From the IMG/VR virus record IMGVR_UViG_3300020473_001965, positions 62,001 to 126,000 of that record: a stretch of DNA of 64,000 bases. One strand, given 5' to 3'. Source of the DNA: a virus. The first letter of the stretch is position 1. The number at the start of each line of letters is the position of its first letter. Below, one piece after another: positions 2,528-52,918 of this stretch. A program made the position numbers and the translations under genes. Under the pieces are notes generated by a model. It was not told the DNA's origin. It ran no database searches and was given only the letters and a program-made list of their open reading frames with translations.

Positions 2528-3325
2528 TTAGGACACTTCTGATGGTAATCTACTAATTATGTCTTCTATTATCTCGCATGTATTTTCAGGGGATTTCGTA
2601 GCAAATGCACGGCCGTGTCCGCCAAGCGTCTCATAGATGGTATTGTCGTTGCCGCCTGGCATACACTTATCTCCAACAAACCAGCATCGATAATCTTTAA
2701 AGTGATTTAGCGCATACGTTTTGTCCCAACCCGTCGGATAAATATCAATACTTGTTGATCCCCCAAGTGCAGCAGTCACGCTAACACCAGCGTGCTTGAT
2801 CTCCTTAAAGATCTCTTCTAAATAACGCTCTCTTATGCTCTGTTCAGTATCTGCTTTGATCCAGGCTTCCCTTTCTTGCTGATTTGCTAGCCTGCCTACA
2901 GGACACCAATTAAGCATAGATTCTCTATAGTGGAAGAAAGTTCCAGTAAGGGGCAAATTGTTTTGACACGATATGACAATCTGGTGGGCCAACAGTGAAG
3001 TCAAAAGACTGTTGTATGCATCTTGGCCGATTTCTTCTCTCATGTCTCGAGAATGTTTAAGCTGCCACTTTCTATTCTTGACTGCATACTGATACAGCTT
3101 TGTCCCATTGCAAGGCATCAAGCTTATTCTAGACGGAGGGACTGATCCTATCTCGTACCATATCTCTCGGCACTGCTCAAATAAATAATCATAGTCACTA
3201 CCCGTCACTATTCCTACTTCACAGTGCTCAGATAACTTTCGAAGAATGCTTATGATATCTCGGCCGACTTTTTGTCGAGGCTCAGTCAGTGTCCCGTCCA
3301 TATCAAACAGGACTATATCTTTCAC
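2528..3325 (-). CDS. Eukaryote-type phosphomannomutase (HAD superfamily)
   Basis: This 265-residue protein resembles human PMM1/PMM2 and plant PMM rather than the bacterial ManB/AlgC type. Motif I is VLFDMDGTLTEPRQKV (nucleophile Asp8, acid Asp10). Then come VGIVTGSDYDYLFEQ, MPCNGTKLY, RESMLNWCPVGR (the cap-domain N-P-GR block that binds the sugar phosphate), STSIDIYPTGWDKTYAL and FVGDKCMPGGNDN (motif IV). It should interconvert mannose-6-phosphate and mannose-1-phosphate toward GDP-mannose. Its length matches the family. The start overlaps the upstream stop as ATGA. The role in infection is unknown; glycan synthesis is one possibility. Confidence 0.92.
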   Translation of the reverse strand: MKDIVLFDMDGTLTEPRQKVGRDIISILRKLSEHCEVGIVTGSDYDYLFEQCREIWYEIGSVPPSRISLMPCNGTKLYQYAVKNRKWQLKHSRDMREEIGQDAYNSLLTSLLAHQIVISCQNNLPLTGTFFHYRESMLNWCPVGRLANQQEREAWIKADTEQSIRERYLEEIFKEIKHAGVSVTAALGGSTSIDIYPTGWDKTYALNHFKDYRCWFVGDKCMPGGNDNTIYETLGGHGRAFATKSPENTCEIIEDIISRLPSEVS

Positions 3326-3567
3326 TGTTCTTCCGGGCTTGGCTCATTAGTTATTTGAAAAGTTCTCTCCAAGAGCGCAAGCTTACCATCAGCATCTGAA
3401 ACTCTAGACAGCAGTTTGTCGCATGTGTCAAGAATGCTGCTGTGATCTCCCGTACCCGTAGGGTTTCTTAAGAAAACCATTAACTCTGCGAGTGCTCCCG
3501 CTCTGTCTGCTTCTAGGCGTGCTTTGAGAGCACCCACCATTTGAATGGTAACTCTTTCTTCAATCAT
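3322..3567 (-). CDS. Small helical protein, unknown
   Basis: An 81-residue protein starting at ATG 3567, chosen because GGAGG sits six bases upstream; a TTG twelve bases earlier is less likely. The sequence is mostly predicted helix (MVGALKARLEADRAGALAEL, then ILDTCDKLLSRV). Its stop overlaps the phosphomannomutase start as ATGA. No family recognised. Confidence 0.75.
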   Translation of the reverse strand: MIEERVTIQMVGALKARLEADRAGALAELMVFLRNPTGTGDHSSILDTCDKLLSRVSDADGKLALLERTFQITNEPSPEEQ

Positions 3568-3615
3568 TTCTACCTCCAATGATATTAGAAAGTTTACTCA
3601 ATCTTTGCTATTTGT

Positions 3616-6600
3616 TTAACTATTTTTGAGAAGGTCTTGAATCATTTCTCTCACAACCGATTCATCTCTACGATCCGGGTCGTTGCTTCCCTGGAAGTCT
3701 AGGCTCATTTGTCTGTCTAGGTCGATTGTAACTCTGTCATTAGCTTGCTGTAATTCTACCGCTGTTCTACCCAGGGCCCAGCCAATTGTGAATATTCCTG
3801 CCCTGATATGCGTCAAGCCCTGAGATTTGCCTCGATCTTTTCCGTATCTTGCTGCAAGAACAGGACGGAATTCATCATCTTCAGGAACGTCGCCCTTTAC
3901 TTTAATCTGTCCAGAACCCTTTAGAGAAAACGAGTATACTGGCTGAATACCACTGAACATATCTACCTGGGCTTGATTAGATTCTTTGGATAGTTGTATC
4001 ACACCCTTTGTGGCAATACAAAGGTCGCAGCTTTCTGGGCTTGATTCACTATCACTTAAAGCTGGCCCATAAATTGCGCGTGCTTTTAAGCTGTCATCGT
4101 TAATCTCTCTATAGACTGCAGTTGTCAGCCTTCCTTCGGCAGTGTAGTCTATCAGATCCTGAATAAAAGACTGAATCTCAGGATGCGTATCTAGACCGGA
4201 TCTACTAGAAATTCCTGACCATTGTTGTTGCTCTGATCCTTTGCTTGCATACTTTAGAGATATAAATGCTACCTGATTTCCTTCATAGTCTACCAACGCA
4301 GCATCGGCTTTTGGTGTCTTTGGTATTGACACACAAGAAACAACCCCGCGGACTGTCTTGTCCCGCCCTAAGTACAGAGAGATTCCCTTGGTAGGGTCGT
4401 AGTCATCATCATTCGACTCATCGCTTATTGCTTTCTGAATTGCTGCATTAATCTGATCAATTTGTATATCTTCTTTTTCGGTACCTGAATCACTATCTTT
4501 GCCCGTAACAATACTCTTGCTTATCCGCGAGAGGGGTGTTCCCGAATCTTGAAATATTTTAACTAGTTCCTTGTATTCATCAGACGCTACAGGATCCTCA
4601 AGGTCAGACATCTTCTCACAGAGGCTTGATGCTTTCGTTCTTTGAGCGGGTGTCATATCAAGCAGTACTTCTCCACCGTCTTTGATTAATCTTACTTTTA
4701 ACTCTGGGTTCTGCAACATCTCAGCGAACTTCTTTAAATACTTTGGTCGCTTTGCAATTCCCCCTCTTCCTGATGCCCTTGTTTCTGAAAGCATTTTCTT
4801 TTTCCTCGTAGTTATTTCTTTAATAATTGTCTTCAATAAGAGTTTGGCTGACTCTGTCAGAGTTAGCCCAACATCTTGGAGATTTTGTGCTATCATTGCC
4901 CACAGCCACGTCTTTCCTTCTCTTTCATCTTCTACTTCATCTTCTGGAACGTATTCCTTGTAAGTCTGCCAGTTTGAATTAACCCAGCGAAGTATTTCAT
5001 TCCTAGAAACGGGCGGTAAGTCTACACCCTTTTGAACAACAATATTGCTGTCTCTCATAAACTTTTGAATCACTTCGTCTCTAGCGGAAGGAGTCGTACT
5101 AAAATGAGTTGTACTTGGATGTGCAGGCTCTTGAGAGAGTTGACGCTTTACATCAGCTGCAGCAAAAGCTGTAGCTGCTCCATCACTGGAAAAGATGTCT
5201 ATCTCTCTTGTGAGGTCTTTACTATCTTTCCCTAGAAATACCTGGGGTGGTCTATTTCCATCAAAATGCCTAAACTTTACGTATGCTATTTCTTTACCTT
5301 CAAGTGCTTCAGTACCTTGAAGACTGTAGTACACTGAAGGGTTCACGTCATTTCGCAAAGGTAGTTCTACCACTTTCATCTCAGGGATCCCGGGATATAC
5401 TACCGATTCTATTGAGACTAGCTGGCTCACTGAGTTTGCATCGGCACGAGCAGCTTTCGACCACGGTACAGTAAATTTTATATACGCAGTCTTTCTATCG
5501 TTTTCTTCTGCACCCAGCTCTACACCAAAGAGTTTTCTGGTAGCATCTGTTACTATTGCATCAACATATCCCATCTCATCCAGTAGCTTCATAAATTCAT
5601 CGTGATTGTCTCTAAACATTTGGAAGTAAGCTTGTTGAGCCTCTTGAGCTTGAGGATCTTTTCCCGGTGTCTTCATGTTGCCAAAGCCACTCTCCATGTA
5701 GTGTGTGTAAACTACACTAGTCTTCCCAGTCTCAAGCAAATGAGGTGCACCCTTCGGTGTCACTCTAAGGTATGAAGATCCTTGTCCTAAGTCTTTTGGT
5801 GAGACGCCAGATCTGAACTCTACACCGTAGCCTGTCCTTGCTGGATTCTTCGGATGCGGATCTGGCACGTGAACGTGTGGCCCACCTATCTTTGAACGCT
5901 CCCACAGATTGATAAACCTCTGATCAGTGATATCTACGCCGAGGTTTGACATTTCTCGGCTTAGCTCAAAAACAGGAACTTCGAATTCAGGTACACCTTT
6001 CTTGCCAAGCACCGGTTGACCAGATGAGTCTGTCTTAAATGTCAAGGTGGTTGTCCCTAATGTAATATTTGATGAAGCCTCTGGAGAAGTTGTAATAAAC
6101 GTTTTAGTCTTACCACCTGATGTTTGAACATCGACGATTTTGTCACGATATTTCTTGTCAGCTGTCTCTTCATTCAAGATGTGTTTCTCAACAAAGCGCT
6201 CGATTGCTCGATAGTAAATGTCTGTGGATATGTAGCCTGATAGATATTGGCCCTTTGCCAGTTTTCCTCTTCCCAAGCCCCCCACTCTATGATCATCATT
6301 TAACTTTACGTGAATGTCTACATTGGTCAGTTCAACGTCTACCTCATCATTGCCAGGCTTGGGTTCTGAGCCTGTACCTGGCAACAACTCTACTTCTCCA
6401 AAATTTGCAATAGCTTCTGAAGCCAGGGACTTCATAGCGCTCACAATGTTTTTTAGCTTTAATAAATTCGCAGCTGTGTCACCAGACTCACCCTCAGTAC
6501 TGACAGCGCTTTCAGCTCTTTCAAAAGCAGCGCTATATCTTCGATCTTTCTTGCACTCTTCCCATTCACCTTCCGTTAAATCTCCCGGGGATTTCGCTGC

Positions 6601-6765
6601 AAAGTAAACAGCCCACTCAGCGATAAAAGACGCGTGGCCATTCGCTGAGCCGGTAAATGGACTCCCTGAAACAGAAGAACCCAAGCCCGCTAAAGGCTTG
6701 GGTGACTCCGAAAGAATTGATTGTATTCTTTCTCGCAACGTTTTTTCATGATTACGTGACAACAT
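3616..6765 (-). CDS. Large putative virion protein with leader-like N-terminus and nuclease-like region
   Basis: The longest gene here, 1049 residues. The N-terminus LRERIQSILSE resembles the leader of the head-protein clusters and carries an LSE site. Around residues 142-156 it has VDVELTNVDIHVKLN. Near residues 818-837 is DAALVDYEGNQVAFISLK followed by QQWSGISSRSG, which looks like the D-x(n)-xxK arrangement of PD-(D/E)XK-type nucleases, though the middle acidic residue is replaced by Ser. A C-terminal beta-rich part ends in a short helix. A promoter-like motif lies 19 bases upstream. I infer an internal virion protein possibly delivered with the DNA; the nuclease call is tentative. Confidence 0.85.
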   Translation of the reverse strand: MLSRNHEKTLRERIQSILSESPKPLAGLGSSVSGSPFTGSANGHASFIAEWAVYFAAKSPGDLTEGEWEECKKDRRYSAAFERAESAVSTEGESGDTAANLLKLKNIVSAMKSLASEAIANFGEVELLPGTGSEPKPGNDEVDVELTNVDIHVKLNDDHRVGGLGRGKLAKGQYLSGYISTDIYYRAIERFVEKHILNEETADKKYRDKIVDVQTSGGKTKTFITTSPEASSNITLGTTTLTFKTDSSGQPVLGKKGVPEFEVPVFELSREMSNLGVDITDQRFINLWERSKIGGPHVHVPDPHPKNPARTGYGVEFRSGVSPKDLGQGSSYLRVTPKGAPHLLETGKTSVVYTHYMESGFGNMKTPGKDPQAQEAQQAYFQMFRDNHDEFMKLLDEMGYVDAIVTDATRKLFGVELGAEENDRKTAYIKFTVPWSKAARADANSVSQLVSIESVVYPGIPEMKVVELPLRNDVNPSVYYSLQGTEALEGKEIAYVKFRHFDGNRPPQVFLGKDSKDLTREIDIFSSDGAATAFAAADVKRQLSQEPAHPSTTHFSTTPSARDEVIQKFMRDSNIVVQKGVDLPPVSRNEILRWVNSNWQTYKEYVPEDEVEDEREGKTWLWAMIAQNLQDVGLTLTESAKLLLKTIIKEITTRKKKMLSETRASGRGGIAKRPKYLKKFAEMLQNPELKVRLIKDGGEVLLDMTPAQRTKASSLCEKMSDLEDPVASDEYKELVKIFQDSGTPLSRISKSIVTGKDSDSGTEKEDIQIDQINAAIQKAISDESNDDDYDPTKGISLYLGRDKTVRGVVSCVSIPKTPKADAALVDYEGNQVAFISLKYASKGSEQQQWSGISSRSGLDTHPEIQSFIQDLIDYTAEGRLTTAVYREINDDSLKARAIYGPALSDSESSPESCDLCIATKGVIQLSKESNQAQVDMFSGIQPVYSFSLKGSGQIKVKGDVPEDDEFRPVLAARYGKDRGKSQGLTHIRAGIFTIGWALGRTAVELQQANDRVTIDLDRQMSLDFQGSNDPDRRDESVVREMIQDLLKNS

Positions 6766-7176: not shown

Positions 7177-7409
7177 TATTCTCCTCCCTTGCATTTTGGA
7201 CATGTTAACTTTACATTAGAATCCTGATCAATCTCGACATGCCAGTCAAGTTGTGATGTATCTTCGTCAGGTTCTGTAGTTTTCCCACAACTCCCGCAAT
7301 GATCAGGCATTTTGTCAATTGCGTGCTGCAATTTCTTAAGTCGCTTCTTTGCTGCTTTCTTTTCAGCAAGCTGCTTCTTTCTCCTAATTGATCTCGACAT
7401 AGATCCCAT
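7176..7409 (-). CDS. Zinc-ribbon protein with basic N-terminal helix
   Basis: A 77-residue protein. The first 35 residues are a Lys/Arg-rich helix (RRKKQLAEKKAAKKRLKKL). The rest holds two metal-binding knuckles, CGSCGK and CPKCKG, about 30 residues apart, a four-Cys zinc ribbon. A nucleic-acid-binding or transcription accessory role would fit. The ATG overlaps the upstream stop as TAATG; a second ATG at 7400 is a possible alternative start. Confidence 0.75.
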   Translation of the reverse strand: MGSMSRSIRRKKQLAEKKAAKKRLKKLQHAIDKMPDHCGSCGKTTEPDEDTSQLDWHVEIDQDSNVKLTCPKCKGGE

Positions 7410-8167
7410 TAGATCTCAACCTCACAAATAAGTGACCACTGAGTGTCGTCACACGGTACATCGTTCCACTGGCCCAAGTCTGCATCATTTCGATTGATAT
7501 GACCGCAGAATTCTGCCCCTCCGTTTGGTTCTTCGGGCGCCCAATTGGTGTATTCAAACGGGATACCAGAGTCCCACTGGTTCGACCCTACGCTGCTGAT
7601 GTTTACCCATGGTCGCTCTGTGTCATCTTCTCCCGAATCCTGGAGCAGCAGGTTTATAGACGTTTGAATTGATTCATTGTAGATTCCTGCCAAAGAATCA
7701 TATCCACTGTCTACACAAAGATCGTAAGATTCAGACCACGTTAAATCAAAATCAGGGCAGAAAGCGTAGTAAACCCCCTCAAACGTATCTGCTTCGCAAT
7801 CAAGCGAATCACAGTCTTGATCGATGCCGTCACCATAAAAGTCTCCCGCAAATGGGTGGACTAGAACGTTTTCATCATCGCAGTCGCCGTCGTTAGGAGT
7901 GTATCCGTCCATGTCACAATCATCGTCCAGATTGCCGCAGGGTTCATCTTCGGGTGGGTCTTCAGTCTCTTCTTCTTCGGGTTCATCTTGAATGGGTGGA
8001 TCCAAAACTTCCGCTGTATTGATTGTAAACTCTGGGTTTTCGTCTTCTTCATCTACGACTACTACTTCTTCATCAGCGCCACCTGATGTGGGTGACTTTA
8101 CTTTCTCAAGCCCATAATCAGAGCAGCCAGTCATCACAAGCGTCAACGGAATATAAAAAGTCTTCAT
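7409..8167 (-). CDS. Lipoprotein with MopE-like metal-binding repeat and C-type lectin domain
   Basis: The protein starts with a lipoprotein signal (FYIPLTLVMTGC; mature Cys followed by SDYGL). A Glu/Asp-rich linker comes next, then a calcium-type repeat (DGYTPNDGDCDDE and GDGIDQDCD), as in MopE-like and thrombospondin type-3 motifs. The C-terminal ~120 residues form a C-type lectin-like domain with paired cysteines, the EPN triplet typical of mannose-type calcium sites, and a WND motif before the last Cys. It probably sits on the outer face of the host envelope. I use ATG 8167, five bases after GGAG; ATG 8170 is the alternative. Confidence 0.88.
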   Translation of the reverse strand: MKTFYIPLTLVMTGCSDYGLEKVKSPTSGGADEEVVVVDEEDENPEFTINTAEVLDPPIQDEPEEEETEDPPEDEPCGNLDDDCDMDGYTPNDGDCDDENVLVHPFAGDFYGDGIDQDCDSLDCEADTFEGVYYAFCPDFDLTWSESYDLCVDSGYDSLAGIYNESIQTSINLLLQDSGEDDTERPWVNISSVGSNQWDSGIPFEYTNWAPEEPNGGAEFCGHINRNDADLGQWNDVPCDDTQWSLICEVEI

Positions 8168-8175
8168 CATCTCTC

Positions 8176-8976: not shown

Positions 8977-9195
8977 TTAACTCTCCTTACTTTTTAATTC
9001 TACCACAACTTGGCTGGCGTTACATAAAATTTCAATATCATCACACCAGGTATTTGATATCACACCATTCGACCATAGAATTGAAACTGATGGTGGTATT
9101 TCTACATCTCGCCTTACTTCTAGTACTATGCCCGTTCCGTCTTCAACACCACAGAAAGTGTCATAAACTAAAACTCCCGGTTCTATTTTATTCAT
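8977..9195 (-). CDS. Small SH3/KOW-like 'GDLV' family protein
   Basis: A 72-residue family member with PGVLVYDTF in place of GDLV, then GTGIVLEV and VSILWSNGVISNTW. The ATG overlaps the stop of the TilS gene (ATGA) and the exonuclease gene follows with no gap, so it sits between two nucleic-acid enzymes. Function unknown. Confidence 0.8.
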   Translation of the reverse strand: MNKIEPGVLVYDTFCGVEDGTGIVLEVRRDVEIPPSVSILWSNGVISNTWCDDIEILCNASQVVVELKSKES

Positions 9196-9791
9196 TGTAG
9201 TGCCAAAATCTTCTTCTTAATAGTCTTCTTAATCCCAGGATTAATTTGCTCCACGTGAGGCATCATAACATGACGAATATAGTTTCGACGATATCTCGTA
9301 TCCACGTTGGTTACATCTTCTACAAATGGGACGCCCTTCCTCGTGCACCACTTGATCAAGTCATCCTTATCTGTAGAAAGAAAAGGCCTGATGTACTGAT
9401 CACGCTTGTGTGGTATTAAGAACGGATTGCCATTGAGGCTTGTAAAGATCCAGTTCTCCACTACATCGCCCAGATGGTGTGCGGTGATGATTGGTAGGTT
9501 AGTTGTGGTTTCAAACCAATCATATCTTTTTTTTCTCCACCAGGCTTCAGATGAAACACCTTCGGGCATCAGGTCTGTATTCCACCCAAACTTGCTCTGA
9601 AGGTTATGCTTGTCTGCGTATTCTTTTACTAGCTGTGTTGCTTTGTCTGCGTGCGCACCGGTGCCATGATTAAAATGCAAAACAGTTACTTCTCGTGTTC
9701 TACGAAGAAAGTCAAGAACTGCCATCGAATCGACGCCGCCGCTAACAGCGATCGATACTTTTTGTGGAACAGCGCCTAAAATTCGAATCAT
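9192..9791 (-). CDS. tilS: TilS-like tRNA(Ile)-lysidine synthetase core
   Basis: A 199-residue N-type ATP-pyrophosphatase. It has VSIAVSGGVDSMAVLDFL (PP-loop), VLHFNHGTGAHAD, ITAHHLGDVVENW and VEDVTNVDTRYRRNYIRHVM, all TilS landmarks. The C-terminal tRNA-binding domains of full-length bacterial TilS are absent, which is usual for short or phage forms. TilS attaches lysine to C34 of tRNA-Ile(CAU) so that it reads AUA. No such tRNA is in the window. Start at ATG 9791, seven bases after GGAG. Confidence 0.88.
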   Translation of the reverse strand: MIRILGAVPQKVSIAVSGGVDSMAVLDFLRRTREVTVLHFNHGTGAHADKATQLVKEYADKHNLQSKFGWNTDLMPEGVSSEAWWRKKRYDWFETTTNLPIITAHHLGDVVENWIFTSLNGNPFLIPHKRDQYIRPFLSTDKDDLIKWCTRKGVPFVEDVTNVDTRYRRNYIRHVMMPHVEQINPGIKKTIKKKILALQ

Positions 9792-9845
9792 CACTTATCT
9801 CCTAGTTTATATTCTAACACACTATGCAGTGTTTTACACTAGAAG

Positions 9846-10473: not shown

Positions 10474-10956
10474 CTAAGCAATCTCAATTTTTCTTGTTTT
10501 CGGTTCCGAGTTGTCAGGTACTACCTTTGGAATCTCCAAGGATAGAATACCGCTTTCAAATCCTGCGGAAATCTTCTTACTATCTAGATTGTCGTTTAGA
10601 GTAAAACTACGTCTAAATGAAGACCTCTTGATCTCTCTCTTTACATATTGAGAATCTGTGACACCTTCATTCTGATTGCTTGTTCCTACAATTGACAACA
10701 CCCCGTCTGTTACTTCAACGTTAATATCTTCTTTAGATAGGCCTGGAATTGCAGCTTCAATTAAAATATGGTCTTCGTGATTTATCACATTTACTTTAGG
10801 GTAGCTCCCCTTGGAAAAGAACTCATCCCCAAACTCCCGATGAAATGCCGGGAACATGTCTGTTAACATATCGTCAAATAGACGATCAAATGGAGTTAAA
10901 AACTCCCTCTTGGTCAGAGAACGTGGATTAACACGTCTACGAATAATTGCACTCAT
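10474..10956 (-). CDS. Small heat-shock protein, Hsp20/alpha-crystallin family
   Basis: A 160-residue ATP-independent holdase chaperone. The alpha-crystallin domain spans roughly residues 45-145, with YPKVNVINHEDHILIEAAIP, LSKEDINVEVTDGVLSIVG and the closing GILSLEIPKV that corresponds to the consensus G-x-L-x-(I/L/V)-x-(I/L/V)-P. The N-terminus (FDRLFDDMLTDMFP) is the usual oligomerisation arm. AGGAG precedes the ATG. With the GroEL and FKBP genes it makes a phage-encoded folding set. Confidence 0.95.
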   Translation of the reverse strand: MSAIIRRRVNPRSLTKREFLTPFDRLFDDMLTDMFPAFHREFGDEFFSKGSYPKVNVINHEDHILIEAAIPGLSKEDINVEVTDGVLSIVGTSNQNEGVTDSQYVKREIKRSSFRRSFTLNDNLDSKKISAGFESGILSLEIPKVVPDNSEPKTRKIEIA

Positions 10957-11071: not shown

Positions 11072-11695
11072 TTAACTTTTTTGATATGGTGCGTTCAATA
11101 AGCTGTCTACAACATCCTGAAGGTGTACTTTGATCGCATCGTAAACAAGTGAGCGTGCTTCATCATGAAAGCTTGCCTCACCAGGCCCGCCTAAATCTTC
11201 AGCTGCAACCTGAAGGACCGGTATCATCGCATCGCGAAGTGCTGCCTTATTCTCTTCACCAAACAGCGGGGCAATTGCATCAGAGAGTGCTTGAGTGTGC
11301 TGCGCTCGCAAGACGCTGAGACCTCCTTCGGGCACAGCCATGTGGCTTATCTCTTCCTTAATAATCTGTCTAAGCTGTCGTCTTGTAATTTTGATTGTTG
11401 ACTCTGTGTATCTTTCAATCCTTTTTCCTGACGGTATGGACTCTGGTTCCATATCAGCCAGCGAGTCTAAACTATAAGGAATGTTTGCTCTGCTTCCTGG
11501 ACCTCCGGTAATCATGTCTAATATGTCGTCAAGCTCATCTTGATTATAGGCAATTTCAGATTGAGCCCTACCGTTTAAATCATATCCCACCACAATGGGA
11601 AATTCAGCATCAGCAATGTTCTTCCCAAGATTATGCCTTGGATGTGCCATTTCTTCTTCAATAATCTTTCTAAGCCGGGATTTTGTAATTTTCAT
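11072..11695 (-). CDS. Leader-family protein with two leader copies
   Basis: A 207-residue protein with two copies of the leader: MKITKSRLRKIIEEEM at the start and IKITRRQLRQIIKEEI near residue 100. The second copy begins with Ile (ATC) where others have Met, as if a former start codon decayed after gene fusion. No other domain is recognised; the C-terminal part is helical. I infer a head-packaged or scaffold-associated protein. It is the last gene of the array that begins near 18982. Confidence 0.8.
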   Translation of the reverse strand: MKITKSRLRKIIEEEMAHPRHNLGKNIADAEFPIVVGYDLNGRAQSEIAYNQDELDDILDMITGGPGSRANIPYSLDSLADMEPESIPSGKRIERYTESTIKITRRQLRQIIKEEISHMAVPEGGLSVLRAQHTQALSDAIAPLFGEENKAALRDAMIPVLQVAAEDLGGPGEASFHDEARSLVYDAIKVHLQDVVDSLLNAPYQKS

Positions 11696-11839
11696 TTTAT
11701 TTTCTCGCGGTGGTCTTTACTCATATCTAAAATCTCATGAATCATTATCGATCGTTTAATCATTGTCTCTAAAATTATTTGAACAACCCTTACTTTCAGC
11801 ATCTTCTGCATAGAAATATATATTACCGAGCCCTGAATT

Positions 11840-12550
11840 ATGCAGCACATCAAAGACCTTAATGTAGAAAGAATAAGAGTTATTACAGTTGCGAAGGTCG
11901 CTAGTTCCGCATTCTCTCACTCTCTCAGTGACAAATATAAGACTAGTCATGGACACTCACTAGCGCTTCTTAAAAAGTGTCTAGAAGAAGAAGAAAACAC
12001 TCTTGTCATCTCAGGCATTAGAAATCCTCTTGCGAGAAATCTATCATACTTTTTCCAAACGTATTCAGACGTCGGGCGCAATGATGTAAAATGCAAGTCA
12101 AATAAATACAAGGGTGAAAAGTGCTATGTTATGGAAAAAGATAAAATATTAAGTTTAAGCACAGAAGAGGTCGTCCAAAAATTCTTTGATCAAAAATGGC
12201 ACAACACTTTTAATGATTGGTTTGAAGAGTTTTTTGAAATCACAGATATCGATGTAGTCTCATTTGATAAAGAATCTGGGTATCAGCTCTACTCACTAGA
12301 CAATAACAACTGGATTCTATTCTATACTTTTGAAATGTTTTCAAAGAACAAGTCAAAATTTGAGAGATTCTTTGATATTAAAAGACTCGCGCACACAAAC
12401 AATGCAGACAAGAGAATTTATGGCGAAGTATATAGAAGCGTAAAAGCATCAATTAAATTCCCTAAGTCATACAAACAAAAGTTACTCAACACAGAAATTA
12501 TCAATCGATTCTACAGTAAAAGTGATATTCAGAAGTTCTGGGCCATGTGA
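11840..12550 (+). CDS. Sulfotransferase-like protein
   Basis: A 236-residue plus-strand protein. RVITVAKVASSAFSHSL fits the PAPS 5'-phosphosulfate loop of sulfotransferases, and LVISGIRNPLARNLSYFFQT fits the 3'-phosphate motif (R-x-P-x-x-R-x-x-S). The later part (WHNTFNDWFEEFFEI) is like capsular-polysaccharide-type sulfotransferases. It may sulfate a surface glycan, but the acceptor is unknown. An in-frame stop six bases upstream limits the start to this ATG or later, and no ribosome site is obvious. It is AT-rich and inverted relative to its neighbours, like an inserted moron. Confidence 0.75.
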   Translation: MQHIKDLNVERIRVITVAKVASSAFSHSLSDKYKTSHGHSLALLKKCLEEEENTLVISGIRNPLARNLSYFFQTYSDVGRNDVKCKSNKYKGEKCYVMEKDKILSLSTEEVVQKFFDQKWHNTFNDWFEEFFEITDIDVVSFDKESGYQLYSLDNNNWILFYTFEMFSKNKSKFERFFDIKRLAHTNNADKRIYGEVYRSVKASIKFPKSYKQKLLNTEIINRFYSKSDIQKFWAM

Positions 12551-12753
12551 TGAAATTTAAAATTTCTGATCACGCTCTAGCAGTTCCTGACATGCAAGTA
12601 GGTGATCTTGTCAAGATAGGTCGCATCGGCAAAGAATACGGCTTGATCCTCAGCATTCATGACTCGAAAAGCATTATTCAAGTATACTGGCCAGAAAGCA
12701 ATGAAATAGGCTGGGAGAAATGCGTTAGAATGATTGTTGTATCTAGAGCCTAA
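12550..12753 (+). CDS. Small SH3/KOW-like 'GDLV' protein (plus strand)
   Basis: A 67-residue member with QVGDLVKIGRIGKEYGLILS and IIQVYWPESNEIGWEK. Its ATG overlaps the sulfotransferase stop (TGATG), so the pair is translationally coupled and has moved together to the plus strand. A small AGCCT/AGGCT hairpin spans its stop and that of the convergent gene. Function unknown. Confidence 0.8.
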   Translation: MKFKISDHALAVPDMQVGDLVKIGRIGKEYGLILSIHDSKSIIQVYWPESNEIGWEKCVRMIVVSRA

Positions 12754-14744
12754 ACAGGCTTAAGATCAGCCAGTTCTTTGATTGCTTCAAGAATCACATC
12801 TCGAACGAGGCCTTTTCTCATAACACCCTCGACTTGTGTCTCGCCAGAGGCTTCTACAGCCGTTGACTGCAATTCTTTTACAGCAGATTTCAGGTCTTTT
12901 ATTCTATCATTTATCTGGTCTATCTTGTCTGGGTCTTCTTCTGCATCGATTTGACTGAGCAGGTCTTGTATCTCTTTGTTTGCTGATGCTACATTGTCTG
13001 TTACTACAGCTTCAATGTCCACGGGTGTTTCGTTGATTACATTTGTTAGCAAAGCTGCGAGATCGCTCTTTCTTATCTTAATGTTTTCTCTTACGTCGTT
13101 TGCGACAGGACGACCAAGACTCGGAGAATAAGCACTCAAGGCGTAATCAGAAGCAGTCACTCCTGCGCGCCAGGCATCCCATGGGCCACCGTAATCATCA
13201 CTTGACATGTCAGCAGGCATCTTATCAACAACTTCATAATTCAAAGCTTTTGCAAGGTCCCTACTCCACTGTCCGAACCCAGAGGCTTCAATGTCTGCCA
13301 TTTGGGCGTCAACGTCGTAAGAGCCTTCTTTTAGGTTTTTTGTAAGTTCGGCGACACGTGTCTTTACCGCTGAAAGAAAACCTGACGACGAGCCACCTAT
13401 TTCATCGCTGGGAATCGGTGTTAAGCCAGAGCCTATGTCAGGCCCCCACATTTCGCCAGAAACCCAAGGACTGCCCGTCCACTTAAACTGATACGGCTTC
13501 GACGCTCCTGGGAGCGTTACTATGAACCCGATGTATTTGCCTTCTTCGTACGGGTTGTAAGAAGTCATCTTTCTTTTGTAGCCGCTCTGAGTCACCTTTA
13601 TTCCTGAAAGTGCTTCTCGCACTTCAGTCACCTGATCGTCTGTTACGGACATTAAGCTTGCAGCCGGACCTGACCATTCGAGGCCTCGACCAGAAATACC
13701 CCAACCCTTAGATTGCCAACCGCCCTGGTTGAGAATTTCTTTGGCTTCTCGGGGTGCTGAAGCTCTACTCTGCCTTGCGATGGTTTTGGCGCCATGATAT
13801 CTTTGTGCTCTTCGTCTGTCTGGGTGTAGATTGTCATCCCAGTCTCCTGACATCGCTTCACGAATCATCTGGAGCAATTCACCCTTAGAGACAGTCCGGA
13901 CTGCACCTTCTGTTGTTTTGCTCTTAGATTGAAATGGTCCGCGGAGATCTGTATTAATATCGCGCCATAGATCAACATCATCGTCAAGCCCCTCCCGATG
14001 GCGGACATACCACTCGGAGTCGGGATCTGAATACGGCTCTAACTCTTCAGGTGTAGATCTTCGCCACTTCGGATTGTCTGCAAGCCACATGACAAAGTCG
14101 GCTTCAAAAACATCTTCACCATAGATTTCTCCAGTAAGCGAATCCACGATATCTCTCATCCCATGTTTTTGAGACAAGCGTTCTGCAGACGCTTCTAGGT
14201 CTGTAACTTTCTGGGTCCATGACTCGTAAACACGCTTTACTTGATCGTCATATCCCCAAACAAGCCTGTTATATTCTGGCCCTCGGGTGAGAATCTTTCC
14301 TTCAAACCCGGGTCGTCCATTCTTAATATCGTCTTCTTTAAATTCAACTTCTACGCGGTGGCGTGTGCCGGAGTTGTCGACAAAGAGGATTTCGTCGCCC
14401 ACTTTATAGCTTACGTCTTGGTGCCCGTATCTGGTGAGCGCGCTCTCTCTGATGTGATTCTGTTGCGCCTGCCTTATAAGATTGCCTGCCAGGCCTTGTG
14501 CAAATTCGTGGGCTGACGCGAGCGGCTTAGCGTGGTAGTGTGGTGCGCCGTAGCCGCTGCTTTTATTGTCCGCTACGATCGCTGATGCATCTTCTTTTGT
14601 GTAAAGCCCTGCTACTCCGCTAGGGGTGCTAGGGTCAGGGTCTCCAAAGACAGGGCTACCGTCATTTCTAGAATCTCGCATGCGAGGCCACAGACTCTGC
14701 TGGCCTCGTCCAAAGTTTGCAATAACTACATAAAGGTCGTCCAT
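12750..14744 (-). CDS. Large multi-leader virion-type protein
   Basis: A 664-residue protein in the leader array. It lacks a leader at residue 1 but has leader-like stretches inside: VSKGELLQMIREAMSG near 285, IKIRKSDLAALLTNVINE near 553 and MRKGLVRDVILEAIKEL near 641. The N-terminal ~100 residues (DDLYVVIANFGRGQQSLW...) look like a separate globular domain, and one beta segment (KVGDEILFVD) resembles the GDLV fold. This suggests a polyprotein of packaged domains cut at INE-type sites. No enzyme motif recognised. Confidence 0.8.
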   Translation of the reverse strand: MDDLYVVIANFGRGQQSLWPRMRDSRNDGSPVFGDPDPSTPSGVAGLYTKEDASAIVADNKSSGYGAPHYHAKPLASAHEFAQGLAGNLIRQAQQNHIRESALTRYGHQDVSYKVGDEILFVDNSGTRHRVEVEFKEDDIKNGRPGFEGKILTRGPEYNRLVWGYDDQVKRVYESWTQKVTDLEASAERLSQKHGMRDIVDSLTGEIYGEDVFEADFVMWLADNPKWRRSTPEELEPYSDPDSEWYVRHREGLDDDVDLWRDINTDLRGPFQSKSKTTEGAVRTVSKGELLQMIREAMSGDWDDNLHPDRRRAQRYHGAKTIARQSRASAPREAKEILNQGGWQSKGWGISGRGLEWSGPAASLMSVTDDQVTEVREALSGIKVTQSGYKRKMTSYNPYEEGKYIGFIVTLPGASKPYQFKWTGSPWVSGEMWGPDIGSGLTPIPSDEIGGSSSGFLSAVKTRVAELTKNLKEGSYDVDAQMADIEASGFGQWSRDLAKALNYEVVDKMPADMSSDDYGGPWDAWRAGVTASDYALSAYSPSLGRPVANDVRENIKIRKSDLAALLTNVINETPVDIEAVVTDNVASANKEIQDLLSQIDAEEDPDKIDQINDRIKDLKSAVKELQSTAVEASGETQVEGVMRKGLVRDVILEAIKELADLKPV

Positions 14745-14754
14745 GTCTTACTCC

Positions 14755-15540
14755 CTAATTTGAAAATGGTACGTAGAGGTTTGTGTTTAACTTGTAGCCT
14801 CCGGCTTCCACATCTGCTTTAGCTTCTGCGTACGAAACAGATCGTGTAGCATCTTCAGCACCTCCAGCGCTTTCTGGAATGTAGACGGCTGCGTGTCGAG
14901 CGCCGCTCTTTGGAATGACAATTATTACACCGTTATTTTGATTGTATTGCATGGGCCCGATGTTTCCGTCACGTTCCTGCTTAAGCAGCCACTCAAGATC
15001 GCTCTCTCTTCCCGGAATTGGTATACCAGAAACTGTTACAAATCCGCGCGGGATTCGAAACTCATTGAGAAGTTGAATCTCTTCTTTAATAATCTGTTGT
15101 AGTTTTGCTTTGGTTATCTTCATGGTGTTCTCCATTGGACCGGCAGGAGGTGCTGCAGTTGGTGGAACTTGAATCGTTGCGCCGCTCATGTCAGAATGAG
15201 CTGTTTGGAAGCTTACGAACTGCGGGTGCTGCTTAAACATTCCCTTGATCACGTCCTTGATCAGCTGGCCCTGTTGCATCATCTCATCTTGAGTGTATCC
15301 CAGGCTTGATAACCACTCTAACAATTGAGGCTCACTTCTGCTTTTCTTCATAGCATTAAAGACAATGTAAAGCCCCATGTCGACTTGGCTTGACCATTCA
15401 AGCTCTGCAGCCCCGTATCGAGGTGCTGATTTTCCAGGTACCGGTGATAGTTCGTTGTGTATTTGATGAACCCGTTCAGATAGCACGCGGCTCAACTCTT
15501 CTTTAATAATCTGTCTTAATTTGTTTTTTGTGATTTTCAT
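14755..15540 (-). CDS. Leader-family protein with two leader-domain units
   Basis: The start is ATG 15540 (MKITKNKLRQIIKEEL), with AAGGA upstream; the longer frame runs through the neighbouring gene. The first leader ends in SRVLSE; the second unit, beginning MKITKAKLQQIIKEEI and ending in LLNE, starts at about residue 140. The second Met still has a GGAG at good spacing, so independent internal initiation or a past gene fusion is likely. The second unit carries a small beta domain (RGFVTVSGIP). No enzymatic motif seen. Confidence 0.82.
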   Translation of the reverse strand: MKITKNKLRQIIKEELSRVLSERVHQIHNELSPVPGKSAPRYGAAELEWSSQVDMGLYIVFNAMKKSRSEPQLLEWLSSLGYTQDEMMQQGQLIKDVIKGMFKQHPQFVSFQTAHSDMSGATIQVPPTAAPPAGPMENTMKITKAKLQQIIKEEIQLLNEFRIPRGFVTVSGIPIPGRESDLEWLLKQERDGNIGPMQYNQNNGVIIVIPKSGARHAAVYIPESAGGAEDATRSVSYAEAKADVEAGGYKLNTNLYVPFSN

Positions 15541-15556
15541 TTTGCTTCCTTTGACC

Positions 15557-16627
15557 TTAATCATACATTGGGGGTGTGTGTCTGACTGGTGCCCGCTTCT
15601 TGCGTGGCTTGGCACCATAAGCATAAAGCACATCTTCAATTTGTTTTAGAGTAAATCCTGCACGTTGTGCTTGATCGGCTGTAATATTACCATAGTCGGT
15701 GCCGCCGTCCTTGTATTCAATATTAATGTTACTTGGCTCGCCACCCTTGCGACGGACCTGATACGTTATCTTCTTGATATCATCCTTAGCTATGTAATCC
15801 ATTGTCAGTGAATTGCCGATAACTTCTCTTTCTCCTGGGTTTGGGTCCGCTTGATGCGCTGCATCCATGTCGGCACCACGCTGGTTCATCCAGGCAGACT
15901 CAAGATCTCTCATGAACTTACGTACTTTGTCAAGATCCCAGTTATCTGGAACGACAGCATCTTGAGAAAAAGACCCGTCGTTCCGACCTACCTTGTTTAC
16001 CCATCCGTTCATTGCGTCAAGGTCTAAGTCAAGATTCTCGTAGTTAACCATTTCATCAGCAAGCGCACCTTGAATGTCATTCGTAAGTGCATAGTTTGCA
16101 ACCCTGTTCATGGTATCCAGATCTTCATAAGGGTTTACCATAATTGGAAGCATTTTGCGCTCGCTGAGTATGGCTTCGCGTATAATTCTTCTAAGCTGTG
16201 ACTTCTTGATTCTCATCTTTCCCTCTGTGGCTGGAGGTAAATCATAGTCTGGTAGACCATGATCACCTGATTCTTGCCACTCACCTTTTCCATTCCAAAA
16301 TCCTGATGGATCTGCATCGGCAGGTGGTGGTCGTTCATGCCAGCCTTCTTGTTTAATGAGTGCTAATAGTTCGCTGTCATGCATCCACTCAGTTTTAGCA
16401 CCAGGATTTGCTCCGAAAACAACAAGAACGTTTGCACCCGGAGGGACTGGATCACCAAGGTCTATTGCGGCACTCACTGTCTCAGGCGAAGCTATGTCAT
16501 TGATATATCGAACTTCTCCGTCACGCGTGAATGTAACATTCCGCCAAGCAAAATGATCTTCAACCCAAGTGGGCACAGATACCACCTCTTGAATTATTCG
16601 CCTGAGCTGTGACCTCTTGATTCTCAC
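15557..16627 (-). CDS. Leader-family protein with two leader-domain units, GTG start
   Basis: A 356-residue protein starting at GTG 16627 (reading RIKRSQLRRIIQEVV). After ~120 residues a second leader, MRIKKSQLRRIIREAILSE, begins with an ATG preceded by GAGG at normal spacing, so the second half can be made alone or is a fused gene. The second unit has a helical domain and ends in a basic tail (KPRKKRAPVRHTPP), a possible DNA-contact element. The GTG overlaps the stop of a 48-residue gene. Confidence 0.82.
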   Translation of the reverse strand: MRIKRSQLRRIIQEVVSVPTWVEDHFAWRNVTFTRDGEVRYINDIASPETVSAAIDLGDPVPPGANVLVVFGANPGAKTEWMHDSELLALIKQEGWHERPPPADADPSGFWNGKGEWQESGDHGLPDYDLPPATEGKMRIKKSQLRRIIREAILSERKMLPIMVNPYEDLDTMNRVANYALTNDIQGALADEMVNYENLDLDLDAMNGWVNKVGRNDGSFSQDAVVPDNWDLDKVRKFMRDLESAWMNQRGADMDAAHQADPNPGEREVIGNSLTMDYIAKDDIKKITYQVRRKGGEPSNINIEYKDGGTDYGNITADQAQRAGFTLKQIEDVLYAYGAKPRKKRAPVRHTPPMYD

Positions 16628-16770
16628 TGTGATAAACTCCCTATGAATCCCATTACCATTACTACAACAAATACTGTTAATGGTATCATTGCTGCTGCCA
16701 TCATACCTAAATCTTTTGGTGTGACTCCTCGATGATCCATCCAGTCTTTGAGTTTTTTTATTGGCTTCAT
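16624..16770 (-). CDS. Small membrane protein, 48 residues
   Basis: Reads MKPIKKLKDWMDHRG, then a hydrophobic segment rich in Met, Ala and Val (MMAAAMIPLTVFVVVMVMG) and a short tail. ATG 16770 overlaps the previous stop (ATGA) and its stop overlaps the next GTG, so it is embedded in the chain of coupled genes. No family recognised. Confidence 0.65.
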   Translation of the reverse strand: MKPIKKLKDWMDHRGVTPKDLGMMAAAMIPLTVFVVVMVMGFIGSLSQ

Positions 16771-16892
16771 TTCTTCTTGTCCTTGTTTTTCTTGACAGGG
16801 ACGGGCTGAAGCGCTGGCTGCAATCCCAGCAAAGCTGCTAGATCATCAATAAATTCGCTCACCTTGGCTCGAATGTCATCAAAGATTTTCAT
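16767..16892 (-). CDS. Small protein, 41 residues
   Basis: Reads MKIFDDIRAKVSEFIDDLAA, then LLGLQPALQPVPVKKNKDKKK: an amphipathic helix, a proline-rich turn and a lysine tail. It is coupled to the following membrane-protein gene by ATGA. The N-terminus faintly resembles the leader helix but lacks the II-EE core. Function unknown. Confidence 0.6.
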   Translation of the reverse strand: MKIFDDIRAKVSEFIDDLAALLGLQPALQPVPVKKNKDKKK

Positions 16893-16897
16893 TTTAT

Positions 16898-17296
16898 CTA
16901 GCCTGTTGTTGTTGCGTACACACTGTAAATGTCGTACTGATCTAAATCACCGATTTGCTGTATAAGCGCAGGGTTGCGGCCGCGCTCTATCGCGGATTGG
17001 ACGTTTCCTCTCACTCCTGGATCAGAAAGGTCAAGCAGTGTTACTGCCCTAAACATGTCTTCGGGTGTGATTGATGGTGCACCCTTTGGCACAAATTCCA
17101 ACCAAGCTCTGTCCCGAGGATGAATTCTTCTTCCATCGAATGTGGTAGTACCGCCTGTTCCAACCTTCCCGTGATAAGGGCCTGAGAGAGCGTCATCCAA
17201 ATAAGAATCGGATTCACTGAGGCCTTTTCTTTCACTCAGAAATCTTGAGACTTCCTCTTTTATAATCTGCTGAATTCTTGATTTAGCTATTTTCAT
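16898..17296 (-). CDS. Leader-family small virion-type protein
   Basis: A 132-residue protein beginning MKIAKSRIQQIIKEEVSRF, followed by LSE and a second LSE within ten residues, both T4-type prohead cleavage sites. The rest is a compact domain (GRRIHPRDRAWLEFVPKG, then helices) without recognised motifs. Its ATG overlaps the upstream stop. Confidence 0.82.
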   Translation of the reverse strand: MKIAKSRIQQIIKEEVSRFLSERKGLSESDSYLDDALSGPYHGKVGTGGTTTFDGRRIHPRDRAWLEFVPKGAPSITPEDMFRAVTLLDLSDPGVRGNVQSAIERGRNPALIQQIGDLDQYDIYSVYATTTG

Positions 17297-17580
17297 TTTA
17301 AGGCCTTGGCGTCGTCGAGCTGACCTCGCTCGACTGTTGCTGTTAGATCCTCAATGAATTCATATGCAGCCGCTCGGCGATCGCCGGGATCGCGTATCGA
17401 CATAAGAGCATTGATCACATCTTTCATAGCAGTACCCAAATCGTCTTCTTCGTACTCATACTCCTTGAGCATTTCTTGACGCTCAGCATTTGAGCCAAAC
17501 TCTTTCTTGCTGGTCTGCCTGTTAAGTTTTGCAGCTTCCTCAGCAACAATTCTTTTAAGTTGTTTCTTGGTAATTTTCAT
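17293..17580 (-). CDS. Leader-family small helical protein
   Basis: A 95-residue protein starting MKITKKQLKRIVAEEAAKLN. The body is acidic and helical (MKDVINALMSIRDPGDRRAA and YEFIEDLTATVE). No clear L-x-E site follows the leader. It overlaps the next gene as ATGA. Function unknown; presumed head-packaged by its leader and neighbours. Confidence 0.8.
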   Translation of the reverse strand: MKITKKQLKRIVAEEAAKLNRQTSKKEFGSNAERQEMLKEYEYEEDDLGTAMKDVINALMSIRDPGDRRAAAYEFIEDLTATVERGQLDDAKALK

Positions 17581-17589
17581 TTTTATCCT

Positions 17590-17832
17590 CTACAATCTAA
17601 TGTTTCTTAGTCTTCTGTCCCTGACTATTGCTGCAGGTAGTTCTCCTAGCTCGAGATCTCTCTTTACTTGTGTCAGCTGTTCGGGGAAGAGTCGACCCTT
17701 GTCGACTTCGAACTCTACTTGACGCAGGAGTTCTGCCTTTTGTCGCTCAATCTCAGCGTTTTCACTAAGAGCATTAAGCACTTGCAGCTCTTCTCTTACT
17801 ATTTGACGAAGCTTTTTCTCTGTTAGTTTCAC
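17590..17832 (-). CDS. Leader-family small helical protein, GTG start
   Basis: I take GTG 17832, which has GAGG six bases upstream, overlaps the preceding TAG and puts the leader (KLTEKKLRQIVREEL) at the N-terminus as in its paralogues. An LSE site follows at about residue 23. The remainder is a long charged helix pair (EIERQKAELLRQVEFEVDKG, then LTQVKRDLELGEL). Function unknown. Confidence 0.8.
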   Translation of the reverse strand: MKLTEKKLRQIVREELQVLNALSENAEIERQKAELLRQVEFEVDKGRLFPEQLTQVKRDLELGELPAAIVRDRRLRNIRL

Positions 17833-18083
17833 TATCTTCCTCGCTGCCAAGAATAGGCGAACCCATGCTTGCTAAAAAATGCGTTGAGCACCTCATCCAA
17901 CTCGGTTTCAAAGCCTACCGGAAGCAGACCGTGCTTGAGATCAGATTCAATGTTTACACTCAAGGTGTGCATTCCGCCGGCTGAGGGCCACATTCTAGCA
18001 GATGCTGTGCTGTTCGATTCGTTTAAAATCTTTTTCTGCTCTTCTTGGATGATTCTTCTGAGTTGTGACTTTTTGATTTTCAT
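17832..18083 (-). CDS. Leader-family small protein
   Basis: An 83-residue protein with MKIKKSQLRRIIQEEQKKI followed at once by LNE. The rest has a beta segment (GMHTLSVNIESDLKHG) and a helix (FETELDEVLNAFFSKHG). Very similar leaders at 18290 and 18845 suggest recent duplication. Function unknown. Confidence 0.8.
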   Translation of the reverse strand: MKIKKSQLRRIIQEEQKKILNESNSTASARMWPSAGGMHTLSVNIESDLKHGLLPVGFETELDEVLNAFFSKHGFAYSWQRGR

Positions 18084-18089
18084 GATATC

Positions 18090-18290
18090 CTACTTTGCTG
18101 TTTGCGCTTGAGACAGCATCGCTGCTAGACGGTCTAGCTTTTTTCCTATGTCTGTTTCTTCGCCTACATCGTCAACTAGGCTAAACAGTTCCTGTCTTAC
18201 CTTTTCTATTATTTCATTCTTTTTTGACTCTGCCAACCGATCCTTCTCTTCTTGGATGATTCTTCTGAGTTGTGACTTCTTGATTCTCAT
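18090..18290 (-). CDS. Leader-family small helical protein
   Basis: A 66-residue protein; start at ATG 18290 because GGAGAG lies just upstream and the ATG overlaps the preceding TGA. The leader MRIKKSQLRRIIQEEKDRL is followed by AES and two helices (IIEKVRQELFSLVDDV and LDRLAAMLSQAQTA). Function unknown. Confidence 0.8.
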   Translation of the reverse strand: MRIKKSQLRRIIQEEKDRLAESKKNEIIEKVRQELFSLVDDVGEETDIGKKLDRLAAMLSQAQTAK

Positions 18291-18571
18291 TTTCTCTCCC
18301 AAGCTCCTCTTGAAGCTAAGTTTACTAGGGCAGGGATCACTTTGCCCCTCACGTACTCAAGTGCGTCTTGATAAACGTCATCGCCGTACAAGCCCGTGTC
18401 AAAGTTCTTCTGATCACTCTTGACGGCGCCGTCTTCAATCATCACTTCAACAATCTCATCGACGAGCTGTGCTACGCTGTGGTAGTCGGGACCAGCTTCG
18501 ACGCGAGCTTCCTGAAGGTTGGCAGCTTCTTCTTTGATTATCTGTCTAAGTTGTTTCTTTGTAATTTTCAT
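18287..18571 (-). CDS. Leader-family small helical protein
   Basis: A 94-residue protein with MKITKKQLRQIIKEEAANL, then LQE and a helical acidic domain (YHSVAQLVDEIVEVMIEDG, then DALEYVRGKVIPALVNLAS). Helix content and size match its neighbours, suggesting one expanded family. Function unknown. Confidence 0.8.
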   Translation of the reverse strand: MKITKKQLRQIIKEEAANLQEARVEAGPDYHSVAQLVDEIVEVMIEDGAVKSDQKNFDTGLYGDDVYQDALEYVRGKVIPALVNLASRGAWERK

Positions 18572-18572
18572 T

Positions 18573-18845
18573 TTAAGCTCTCGGTACCGACTTTAAGAAA
18601 TTGTGCACTAACTTGAATGCCTTTTTTAATTCTAGAAATTTCTGAGGTGTCAGCTCACCCGCATCGCGTTGCCTCATTGCTAGCGCAGGAAGGACACTGC
18701 TAAGATCTACAGCTACATCGGACGGGTGTTTCTCGTGCGGCAAGTGGTCGTCCTCGATGTCGCCGGGGCGCGTGTACGCATCAGCAATCAATCTAGCCTG
18801 CTCTTCTTGGATGATTCTTCTAAGTTGTGACTTCTTGATCTTCAT
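18573..18845 (-). CDS. Leader-family small helical protein
   Basis: A 90-residue protein; ATG 18845 has AGGAAG upstream and puts the leader MKIKKSQLRRIIQEEQARL at the N-terminus. The body contains a His/Asp-rich loop (EDDHLPHEKHPSDV) and a C-terminal helix (FLELKKAFKLVHNFLKSV). Function unknown. Confidence 0.8.
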   Translation of the reverse strand: MKIKKSQLRRIIQEEQARLIADAYTRPGDIEDDHLPHEKHPSDVAVDLSSVLPALAMRQRDAGELTPQKFLELKKAFKLVHNFLKSVPRA

Positions 18846-40969: not shown

Positions 40970-42744
<1,775 letters not shown>

Positions 42745-47780: not shown

Positions 47781-47828
47781 CAAAAAATAGTTCTAAAGTC
47801 GCATACTTATAAAAAGAGGTATGCGCTC

Positions 47829-48554: not shown

Positions 48555-48582
48555 GCGTTGACATAAAATAGGAGGGTCTAAA

Positions 48583-52347: not shown

Positions 52348-52656
52348 TTAATCCTCCGATTCTTCAATTAACTCTATTTGACCTGTGCTTAAACCGTACC
52401 TGTGAGCTTTTTTCTTAAGTTCTCGCAGGGACTCCATACATCTTGTAATTCGATCTCTTTCTTTCCTATCTGTTCTTGAAAGTTGCTTTCTAACATTGTT
52501 CAACTCAGACAGCAAAGTATCATATACATTCACATGCGATGAAGAGCCAAAAGAAAGCTCTTCATTTTCAGTTGTTAGAAAAGTCTTGTTCTCATTTAAA
52601 GATAAGAAACTTTCTCTAAGAAAAGTTCTCAATAACTTGTTTTTCTGGTCAGACAT
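52348..52656 (-). CDS. Leader-family coiled-coil protein
   Basis: A 102-residue protein with KLLRTFLRESFLSLNE at the N-terminus, a leader-type helix ending in an LNE site, then a coiled coil (LLSELNNVRKQLSRTDRKE and ITRCMESLRELKKKAH). It lies directly before the DUF6267 gene. Presumably head-associated; function unknown. Confidence 0.78.
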   Translation of the reverse strand: MSDQKNKLLRTFLRESFLSLNENKTFLTTENEELSFGSSSHVNVYDTLLSELNNVRKQLSRTDRKERDRITRCMESLRELKKKAHRYGLSTGQIELIEESED

Positions 52657-52675
52657 TCGTCACCTCCAGATATAA

Positions 52676-52867: not shown

Positions 52868-52918
52868 AATCGTATTATACCCTATTCTTTGACGGTTTAC
52901 ATAAAAAAATATATTTTT

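Follow-up and report, generated by a model that had tools for sequence, protein, structure and literature searches.

The DNA considered here, referred to as the window, is a stretch of 64,000 nucleotides (bases 62001-126000) of the 235,672-bp virus record IMGVR_UViG_3300020473_001965, and its region 11072-18845 carries on the minus strand an array of genes whose products begin with one shared N-terminal leader, M-K/R-I-x-K-x-x-L-x-x-I-I-x-E-E. Ten genes bear this leader at the N-terminus, and three of the encoded proteins each contain a further strong copy, internal and in frame, which brings the total to 13 (Table 1). An array at these coordinates was the starting point of this work (the original prediction), and both the array and its extent were confirmed on the sequence, while its count of nine genes with eleven copies proved slightly low. 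Nor do the genes follow one another without a break, the row being interrupted by two leaderless short genes (16624-16892), an open reading frame (ORF) of 664 amino acids (aa), and two plus-strand ORFs (11840-12753).

As had been proposed, most of the leaders carry an L-x-E motif, the form after which the T4 protease cuts (L/I-X-E; PMC9026906). A second L-x-E starting within residues 16-24, with observed starts at 17-22, was found in 8 of the 13 array copies (binomial P=1.8e-6, from a background of 11 in 1164 body positions, that is, 0.95% per position or ~8% expected per copy), and I-x-E occupies residues 12-14 in 11 of them. A wider set of 343 non-redundant leader proteins with different bodies was collected from pattern-matched loci. 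Conservation of L8, I12, and E14 reaches 96-99% in this set, with I12-x-E14 forming a near-invariant [LI]xE (97.7%). A second [LI]xE peaks at residues 20-22 (29%) and 19-21 (11%), vs. 1.2% per position farther on, and starts at 16-22 in 53% of the proteins, vs. only 6-11% in later seven-residue windows. Of 98 proteins with L-x-E at 20-22, 71 have V, L, or I just ahead of it (P4), and leader conservation falls off after residue 22, beyond which column entropy is at background. The consensus of ~22 residues reads MK-I-T/K-K-x-Q-L-R/K-x-I-I-K-E-E-x(3-5)-[LVI]-L-x-E. Over all genes of the record the N-terminal enrichment of [LI]xE is modest (60/211 vs. 36-44/211 farther on), and we did not use it as evidence.

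Large uncultured phages commonly carry the leader, which is almost absent from prokaryote genomes. Its back-translated pattern was found in at least 120 stretches of viral contigs, and in only nine stretches, from five metagenome-assembled genomes, in 257 Gb of prokaryote genomes. Chance similarity was rejected even for these nine, since base composition predicts ~1e-4 pattern matches in 257 Gb. Because the leader is common to many viral contigs and stands before different bodies in the 343 proteins, it is a family that extends beyond local duplication. The number of leaders per record ranges from 2 to 41, with 18 at the same threshold in the record studied here; the repertoire, originally described as unusually large, is large in comparison with the three T4 internal proteins that share a leader, but usual within this phage group. 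Dense leader arrays were also observed in two contigs of metagenome-assembled genomes, NHDW01000006.1 (306 kb, filed as Methylococcaceae; loci L135, L139, and L140) and PBIO01000025.1 (101 kb, filed as Halobacteriovorax; L136 and L138). Because the former also encodes a T4-type protease, it probably represents a jumbo phage genome that was binned wrongly.

The leader DNAs of the genes starting at 18845, 18290, and 18083 are identical at 42-43 of 45 positions, while the next 60 nt agree at only 18-19. Because near-identical leader DNA thus precedes unrelated DNA in three array genes, the leaders spread or convert as cassettes. In 334 complete genes, the third positions of the codons for conserved residues vary freely (e.g., four T codons and six L codons), indicating that it is the peptide, not the DNA, that is kept by selection.

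The bodies behind the array leaders are unrelated to one another, as originally noted: blastp of the bodies matched only the internal leader copies. Annotation of these bodies with Pfam and PHROGs was dropped, as no family scored above chance. A search of IMG/VR for close relatives gave two weak hits to the 132-aa protein and none to the 356-aa and 664-aa ORFs, so far as sequence comparison goes making the array bodies near-orphans. The body of gene 7 has a homolog in L073:9464-9793 (54% over 80 aa), which also bears the leader, and the second module of gene 8 has one in L114:2785-3879 (34% over 137 aa), where it again forms the second part of a protein with a leader. Leader proteins are short (median 111 aa), and known domains were almost absent among the 129 scanned, with single cases of a GNAT acetyltransferase, an HD_4 phosphohydrolase, an LRR protein, FliG_C, and DUF6321. 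The domain of the HD_4 protein begins directly after the leader, at residue 26. In the window's record, an HD_4 protein (record 14828-15823, minus strand; L003) is fused to NUDIX, and a relative (L114:1322-2263) has the leader directly before the HD domain; the HD_4 protein is a candidate for an injected nucleotide or alarmone hydrolase.

T4-type heads and the putative capsid cut site

A gp21-like prohead protease, for which the original prediction had suggested a search, is present in the record as the head maturation protease phrog_207 at 207284-207895 (E=2.7e-51), close to a gp23-type capsid protein (phrog_138, E=1.5e-72), the portal, and the terminase. Lack of such a protease, which had been named as grounds for refutation, thus does not apply. 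The protease is encoded by 23 of the 25 large records that bear leaders, and the two without it (147 and 106 kb) may be fragments. The gp23 capsid was found in 29 of 49 leader-bearing records of all sizes, including every one >150 kb, and an HK97-type capsid in none of the 49. The leader is therefore confined to phages with T4-type heads, as far as tested. Because large uncultured phages are often T4-like, this co-occurrence alone is weak evidence. Stronger evidence comes from a conserved protease-adjacent head gene that bears the same leader.

A hidden Markov model (HMM) of the leader, another check suggested at the outset, finds the array, further copies in the record, and this head gene beside the protease. 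In a comparison of 80 protease neighborhoods, the family g206407 (record 206407-206880) adjoins the protease on the scaffold-gene side in 74 loci; the scaffold gene of the record lies at 203317-204873. Its N-terminus reads AKVTKSMLKGIVKECLVEILSE/G and similar (a slash here and below marks the putative cleavage point). The leader HMM scores 47% of its members above 8 bits, vs. 0 of 1480 shuffles, and a profile-profile comparison with the leader aligned residues 1-32 without gaps at a probability of 96.9%. The leader closes with [ILV][LIV]-x-E, then G, in almost every one of the 65 strict matches. The structure model of g206407 shows a confident helix at 17-36 (block pLDDT up to 94) that ends at this motif and is followed by low-confidence coil, with an overall pTM of only 0.32. 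Judging from these comparisons, g206407 starts with a divergent copy of the array leader that ends in I-L-[SA]-E and then G.

Two more families in head clusters match the leader, one of ~81 aa with MKLTSxLLRKIIxEEVAKF and the other with MPKITISQLRRIISEE. A different group of phages has canonical leader genes immediately upstream of the protease (L224 and L225), and other leader-like genes stand beside it in L227, L230, and L234.

The capsid proteins of the relatives carry Q-[AS]-x-x-[VL]-L-x-E followed by [ASQTVNY] in 43 of 50 distinct sequences, and [VL]-L-[RK]-E is the form seen near the T4 gp23 cleavage position. Residues 73-123 of the record's capsid protein align to residues 19-69 of mature gp23*, and its LLRE ends at residue 60; by this alignment, the capsid L-x-E motif lies within ~6 residues of the T4 gp23 cleavage position. 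In addition, several proteases of relatives have [LV]-L-T-E near their own N-terminus. Comparison of these sequences points to [VLI]-L-x-E as a common terminal motif of the array-type leaders, the capsid proteins, and the head-cluster leader protein.

A small basic bS21-like gene lies inside the head cluster of many relatives (L222 and L224-L234; between the protease and the scaffold or capsid gene) and is annotated as RpsU in Microcystis phage Mel-JY01. A second shared N-terminus, MSEMKLIMEGWRxxL.E, occurs in tandem plus-strand genes at record 52404-52955 and 52961-53602 (L005:14404-15602, plus strand), and in L225 and L234 the similar MKVIMExWDR[FY][VI]L.E occurs on an insertion close to the protease. 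This type of N-terminus is possibly a second kind of capsid-targeting leader.

A probable capsid-targeting propeptide and its rivals

The most probable reading, to which we give a probability of roughly 0.77, is that the ~22-residue N-terminal helix serves a T4-type phage as a capsid-targeting propeptide, with which proteins would be packaged, cleaved, and injected as cargo. The helix would bind the prohead core (scaffold and/or protease), so that each tagged protein is built into the prohead, and the gp21-type protease would then cut after [LVI]-L-x-E, with the invariant I-x-E at 12-14 as a possible additional site. The freed bodies would stay in the head and enter the host together with the DNA, as host-takeover or counter-defense proteins whose set varies. 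Virion presence, cleavage, and injection are predicted from sequence in each case. The modular capsid-targeting tag of the original prediction is largely supported by the T4-type head, the protease-adjacent leader gene, and the agreeing cut motif.

Several observations weigh against this reading. The second [LI]xE is missing from 5 of the 13 array copies and from ~47% of the wider set, so cleavage at the second site cannot be universal. The enrichment of small residues directly after the motif (P1') is mild (A+G+S 34% vs. 23% in bodies), and the L-x-E peak could be partly an extension of the amphipathic helix. The internal leaders of the fusions are not at an N-terminus. Some 120 kb separate the array from the head genes, and the record shows no recognizable late promoter motif that would point to co-expression of the two; the T4 motif TATAAATA is not enriched in it. 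Finally, no clear leader was found in any cultured phage, and the leader-bearing phages are known here from sequence alone. In cultured phages, tblastn with the leader gave no matches or only chance-level ones, although its sensitivity is low for so short a query, and no protease-adjacent leader protein was found; the nearest cultured protease neighborhoods, those of Microcystis phage Mel-JY01 and Flavobacterium phage immuto, have no canonical leader beside the protease. No near-identical DNA was found in phage records.

The missing second motifs and the weak P1' preference are also what would be expected if the leader were a permanent, uncleaved helix that binds the prohead core or inner capsid, carried by packaged proteins or assembly factors, with L-x-E as the end of the helix. 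The hydrophobic positions 8, 11, 12, 16, 19, and 20 fit such a single continuous amphipathic helix. We consider this explanation unlikely, however, because conservation stops exactly after E22, residues P4-P1 match both the inferred capsid site [VL]-L-x-E and the ILSE of the head-cluster protein with its following G, and the invariant I-x-E at 12-14 offers a possible site in most leaders that lack the second motif.

Less probable still is a signal unrelated to the head, such as a host-target, membrane, or DNA-binding helix, an import tag for a replication compartment, or a signal for loading early anti-host proteins into the tail lumen. The array's position in an accessory region, at a distance from the head genes, would suit such a signal, as would the host-interaction-like domains among the bodies of relatives (GNAT, HD_4, FliG_C, and LRR). 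It would leave unexplained why most relatives have the same leader on the conserved gene next to the prohead protease, why variable genes inserted there bear it too, and why it is confined, as far as tested, to records with T4-type heads; moreover, the capsid-targeted internal protein genes of T4 are likewise distant from its head cluster. That the leader is a footprint of recombination or gene duplication, or a translation-initiation element, kept as DNA or RNA with no protein function, was rejected as very improbable, because the codons of its 96-99% conserved residues vary synonymously even though the leader DNA of three array genes is nearly identical before unrelated DNA.

If the leader is a capsid-targeting propeptide, the in-frame fusions may be cargo polyproteins, or an extra translation start may lie at the internal leader. 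Each of the two internal leaders that start at 16216 and 15123 is preceded by a ribosome-binding site of its own, so that either two products would be made or the chain would be cut in the head. Similar leader fusions were found in L022, L043, L059, L063, L080, L138, and L140. We tentatively raise the further idea, which we think is rather less than an even bet, of a polyprotein system in which genes 8, 9, and 10 (perhaps also the 664-aa ORF) string leader modules together; the protease would cut each internal leader in the head and free several injected proteins, and recombination at near-identical leader DNA would reshuffle the cargo.

Should the propeptide reading be true, the leader would be a readable label by which head-packaged, and probably injected, proteins could be recognized across a large group of uncultured T4-type phages, and hundreds of orphan proteins would become predicted early-acting host-takeover or counter-defense factors that are directly testable. 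T4 capsid targeting would then be one case of a general modular cargo system, strongly expanded here and equipped with a leader family of its own. The leader would also provide a new tag with which proteins could be loaded into phage heads.

Features and neighbors of the array

Table 1. Leader genes, internal leaders, and leader-like genes of the window (window coordinates; minus-strand genes start at the higher number; a slash marks the putative cleavage point; bits refer to the leader HMM).
Feature	Coordinates	Strand	Description
Leader gene 1	18573-18845	-	90 aa; MKIKKSQLRRIIQEEQARLIAD...; IQE at 12-14, without second L-x-E
Leader gene 2	18287-18571	-	94 aa; MKITKKQLRQIIKEEAANLQE/A; 39.2 bits, best of the record
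Leader gene 3	18090-18290	-	66 aa; MRIKKSQLRRIIQEEKDRLAE/S
Leader gene 4	17832-18083	-	83 aa; MKIKKSQLRRIIQEEQKKILNE/S
Leader gene 5	17590-17832	-	GTG start overlaps preceding stop; divergent leader VKLTEKKLRQIVREELQVLNALSE/N
Leader gene 6	17293-17580	-	95 aa; MKITKKQLKRIVAEEAAKLNRQ; without L-x-E
Leader gene 7	16898-17296	-	132 aa; MKIAKSRIQQIIKEEVSRFLSE/R
Leader gene 8	15557-16627	-	GTG start; 356 aa; two modules
Internal leader, gene 8	16151-16216	-	In frame; MRIKKSQLRRIIREAILSE/R; own ribosome-binding site GAGGGAAAGATG
Leader gene 9	14755-15540	-	261 aa; MKITKNKLRQIIKEELSRVLSE/R; two modules
Internal leader, gene 9	15058-15123	-	In frame; MKITKAKLQQIIKEEIQLLNE/F; own ribosome-binding site GGAGAACACCATG
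664-aa ORF	12750-14744	-	Degenerate internal leader TVSKGELLQMIREA at ~13839-13889; leader-like helices near C-terminus (sequence reading); array membership uncertain
Leader gene 10	11072-11695	-	207 aa; MKITKSRLRKIIEEEMAHPRHN; without second L-x-E
Internal leader, gene 10	11330-11395 (start ~11395)	-	In frame; (I)KITRRQLRQIIKEEISHM; strong match, 34.9 bits; no Met
Distant leader-like gene	58551-58949	-	MKITESKLRKIVRNQLQIKKLNELSKRVISE; weak, 4.9 bits
Neighbor of the 58551-58949 gene	57932-58594	-	LRRIIREELKLISE/G; 12.1 bits

The degenerate leader of the 664-aa ORF scores 7.2 bits, under the best shuffled score of 8.5. The last two rows of Table 1 belong to a second gene cluster with diverged leader-like N-termini (window 57932-60044, minus strand), in which MKITESKLRKIVRNQL, MITKDGVREIIRDSLG, and KVRLTEKQIIRMMRDQ also occur. 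A 1049-aa protein without a convincing known domain (window 3616-6765, minus strand) starts with MLSRNHEKTLRERIQSILSE/SPKPL, a leader-like helix ending in ILSE, and is possibly a large head-packaged protein.

Among the neighboring genes, the one at window 11840-12550 (plus strand), which lies inside the array, has a weak NKWYS match (putative capsular polysaccharide synthesis, E=8e-6). By sequence reading, an Hsp20-like chaperone (window 10474-10956) adjoins the array, a PP-loop ATPase resembling tRNA(Ile)-lysidine synthetase lies at 9192-9794, and GroEL is found at 40970-42556. Several sulfotransferase-like genes with a HIPKTGG motif occupy record positions 47790-50370. A GCSDY/CTSDY motif stands behind the signal peptide of several lipoprotein-like genes (window 7409-8170, 48583-49467, and 49451-51073; record 2573-5183), which are unusual for a phage and perhaps hint at the host group.

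Comparison with known systems

In the literature searched, which left out most subscription papers, no published description of this leader was found. In bacteriophage P1, the N-terminal 30 residues of DarB suffice to direct a reporter to the capsid (PMC9024508). DarB thus also has an N-terminal capsid-targeting signal, whereas the Dar proteins have no common consensus and form no tandem leader family. In phiKZ and SPN3US, many head proteins are processed after x-x-E by a gp21-type protease and delivered with the DNA (PMC9026906). The inner-body and ejection proteins of these phages have prohead-protease propeptides, as is predicted for the leader proteins, but the phiKZ motif is S/A-X-E, its propeptides are not described as one common short leader, and the proteases are only distant relatives of gp21.

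The genes of g206407 and the ~81-aa leader protein adjoin that of the protease and stand between it and that of the scaffold, in the manner of prohead core components such as gp67 and gp68 of T4, whose genes are next to gp21; the proteins are helical with [LI]-x-E sites. On the other hand, gp67 and gp68 do not match the leader HMM (at most 2.6 bits), and the two head-cluster leader genes are found downstream rather than upstream of the protease gene.

The closest precedent is found in T4 itself, in which three internal proteins (IPI, IPII, and IPIII) with different bodies share one removable N-terminal sequence, and IPI has an anti-restriction role (PMC9026906). In both systems, one short N-terminal leader stands on small proteins with different bodies, the leader ends in [LI]-x-E (IAE followed by A in IPII and IPIII), the prohead protease is of the same family (gp21), and the cargo genes can lie away from the head cluster. 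No body homology to IPI-IPIII was found, the array bodies having no Pfam or PHROG family above chance, and the T4 internal proteins (MKTYQEFIAEA and MKTFKEFTS) gave no meaningful score with the leader HMM. On these comparisons, the leader appears analogous to the T4 capsid-targeting sequence MKTYQEFIAE rather than recognizably homologous to it. The T4 sequence has 10 residues, vs. a basic amphipathic helix of ~22 residues here; T4 has three members, vs. tens per genome in tandem array; and only the phages described here have in-frame fusions with internal leaders and a leader on a conserved protease-adjacent head-cluster protein. By analogy with T4, then, what would be new is the different leader, the far larger cargo set, the tandem arrays, and the fusions, in a type of mechanism that is already known.

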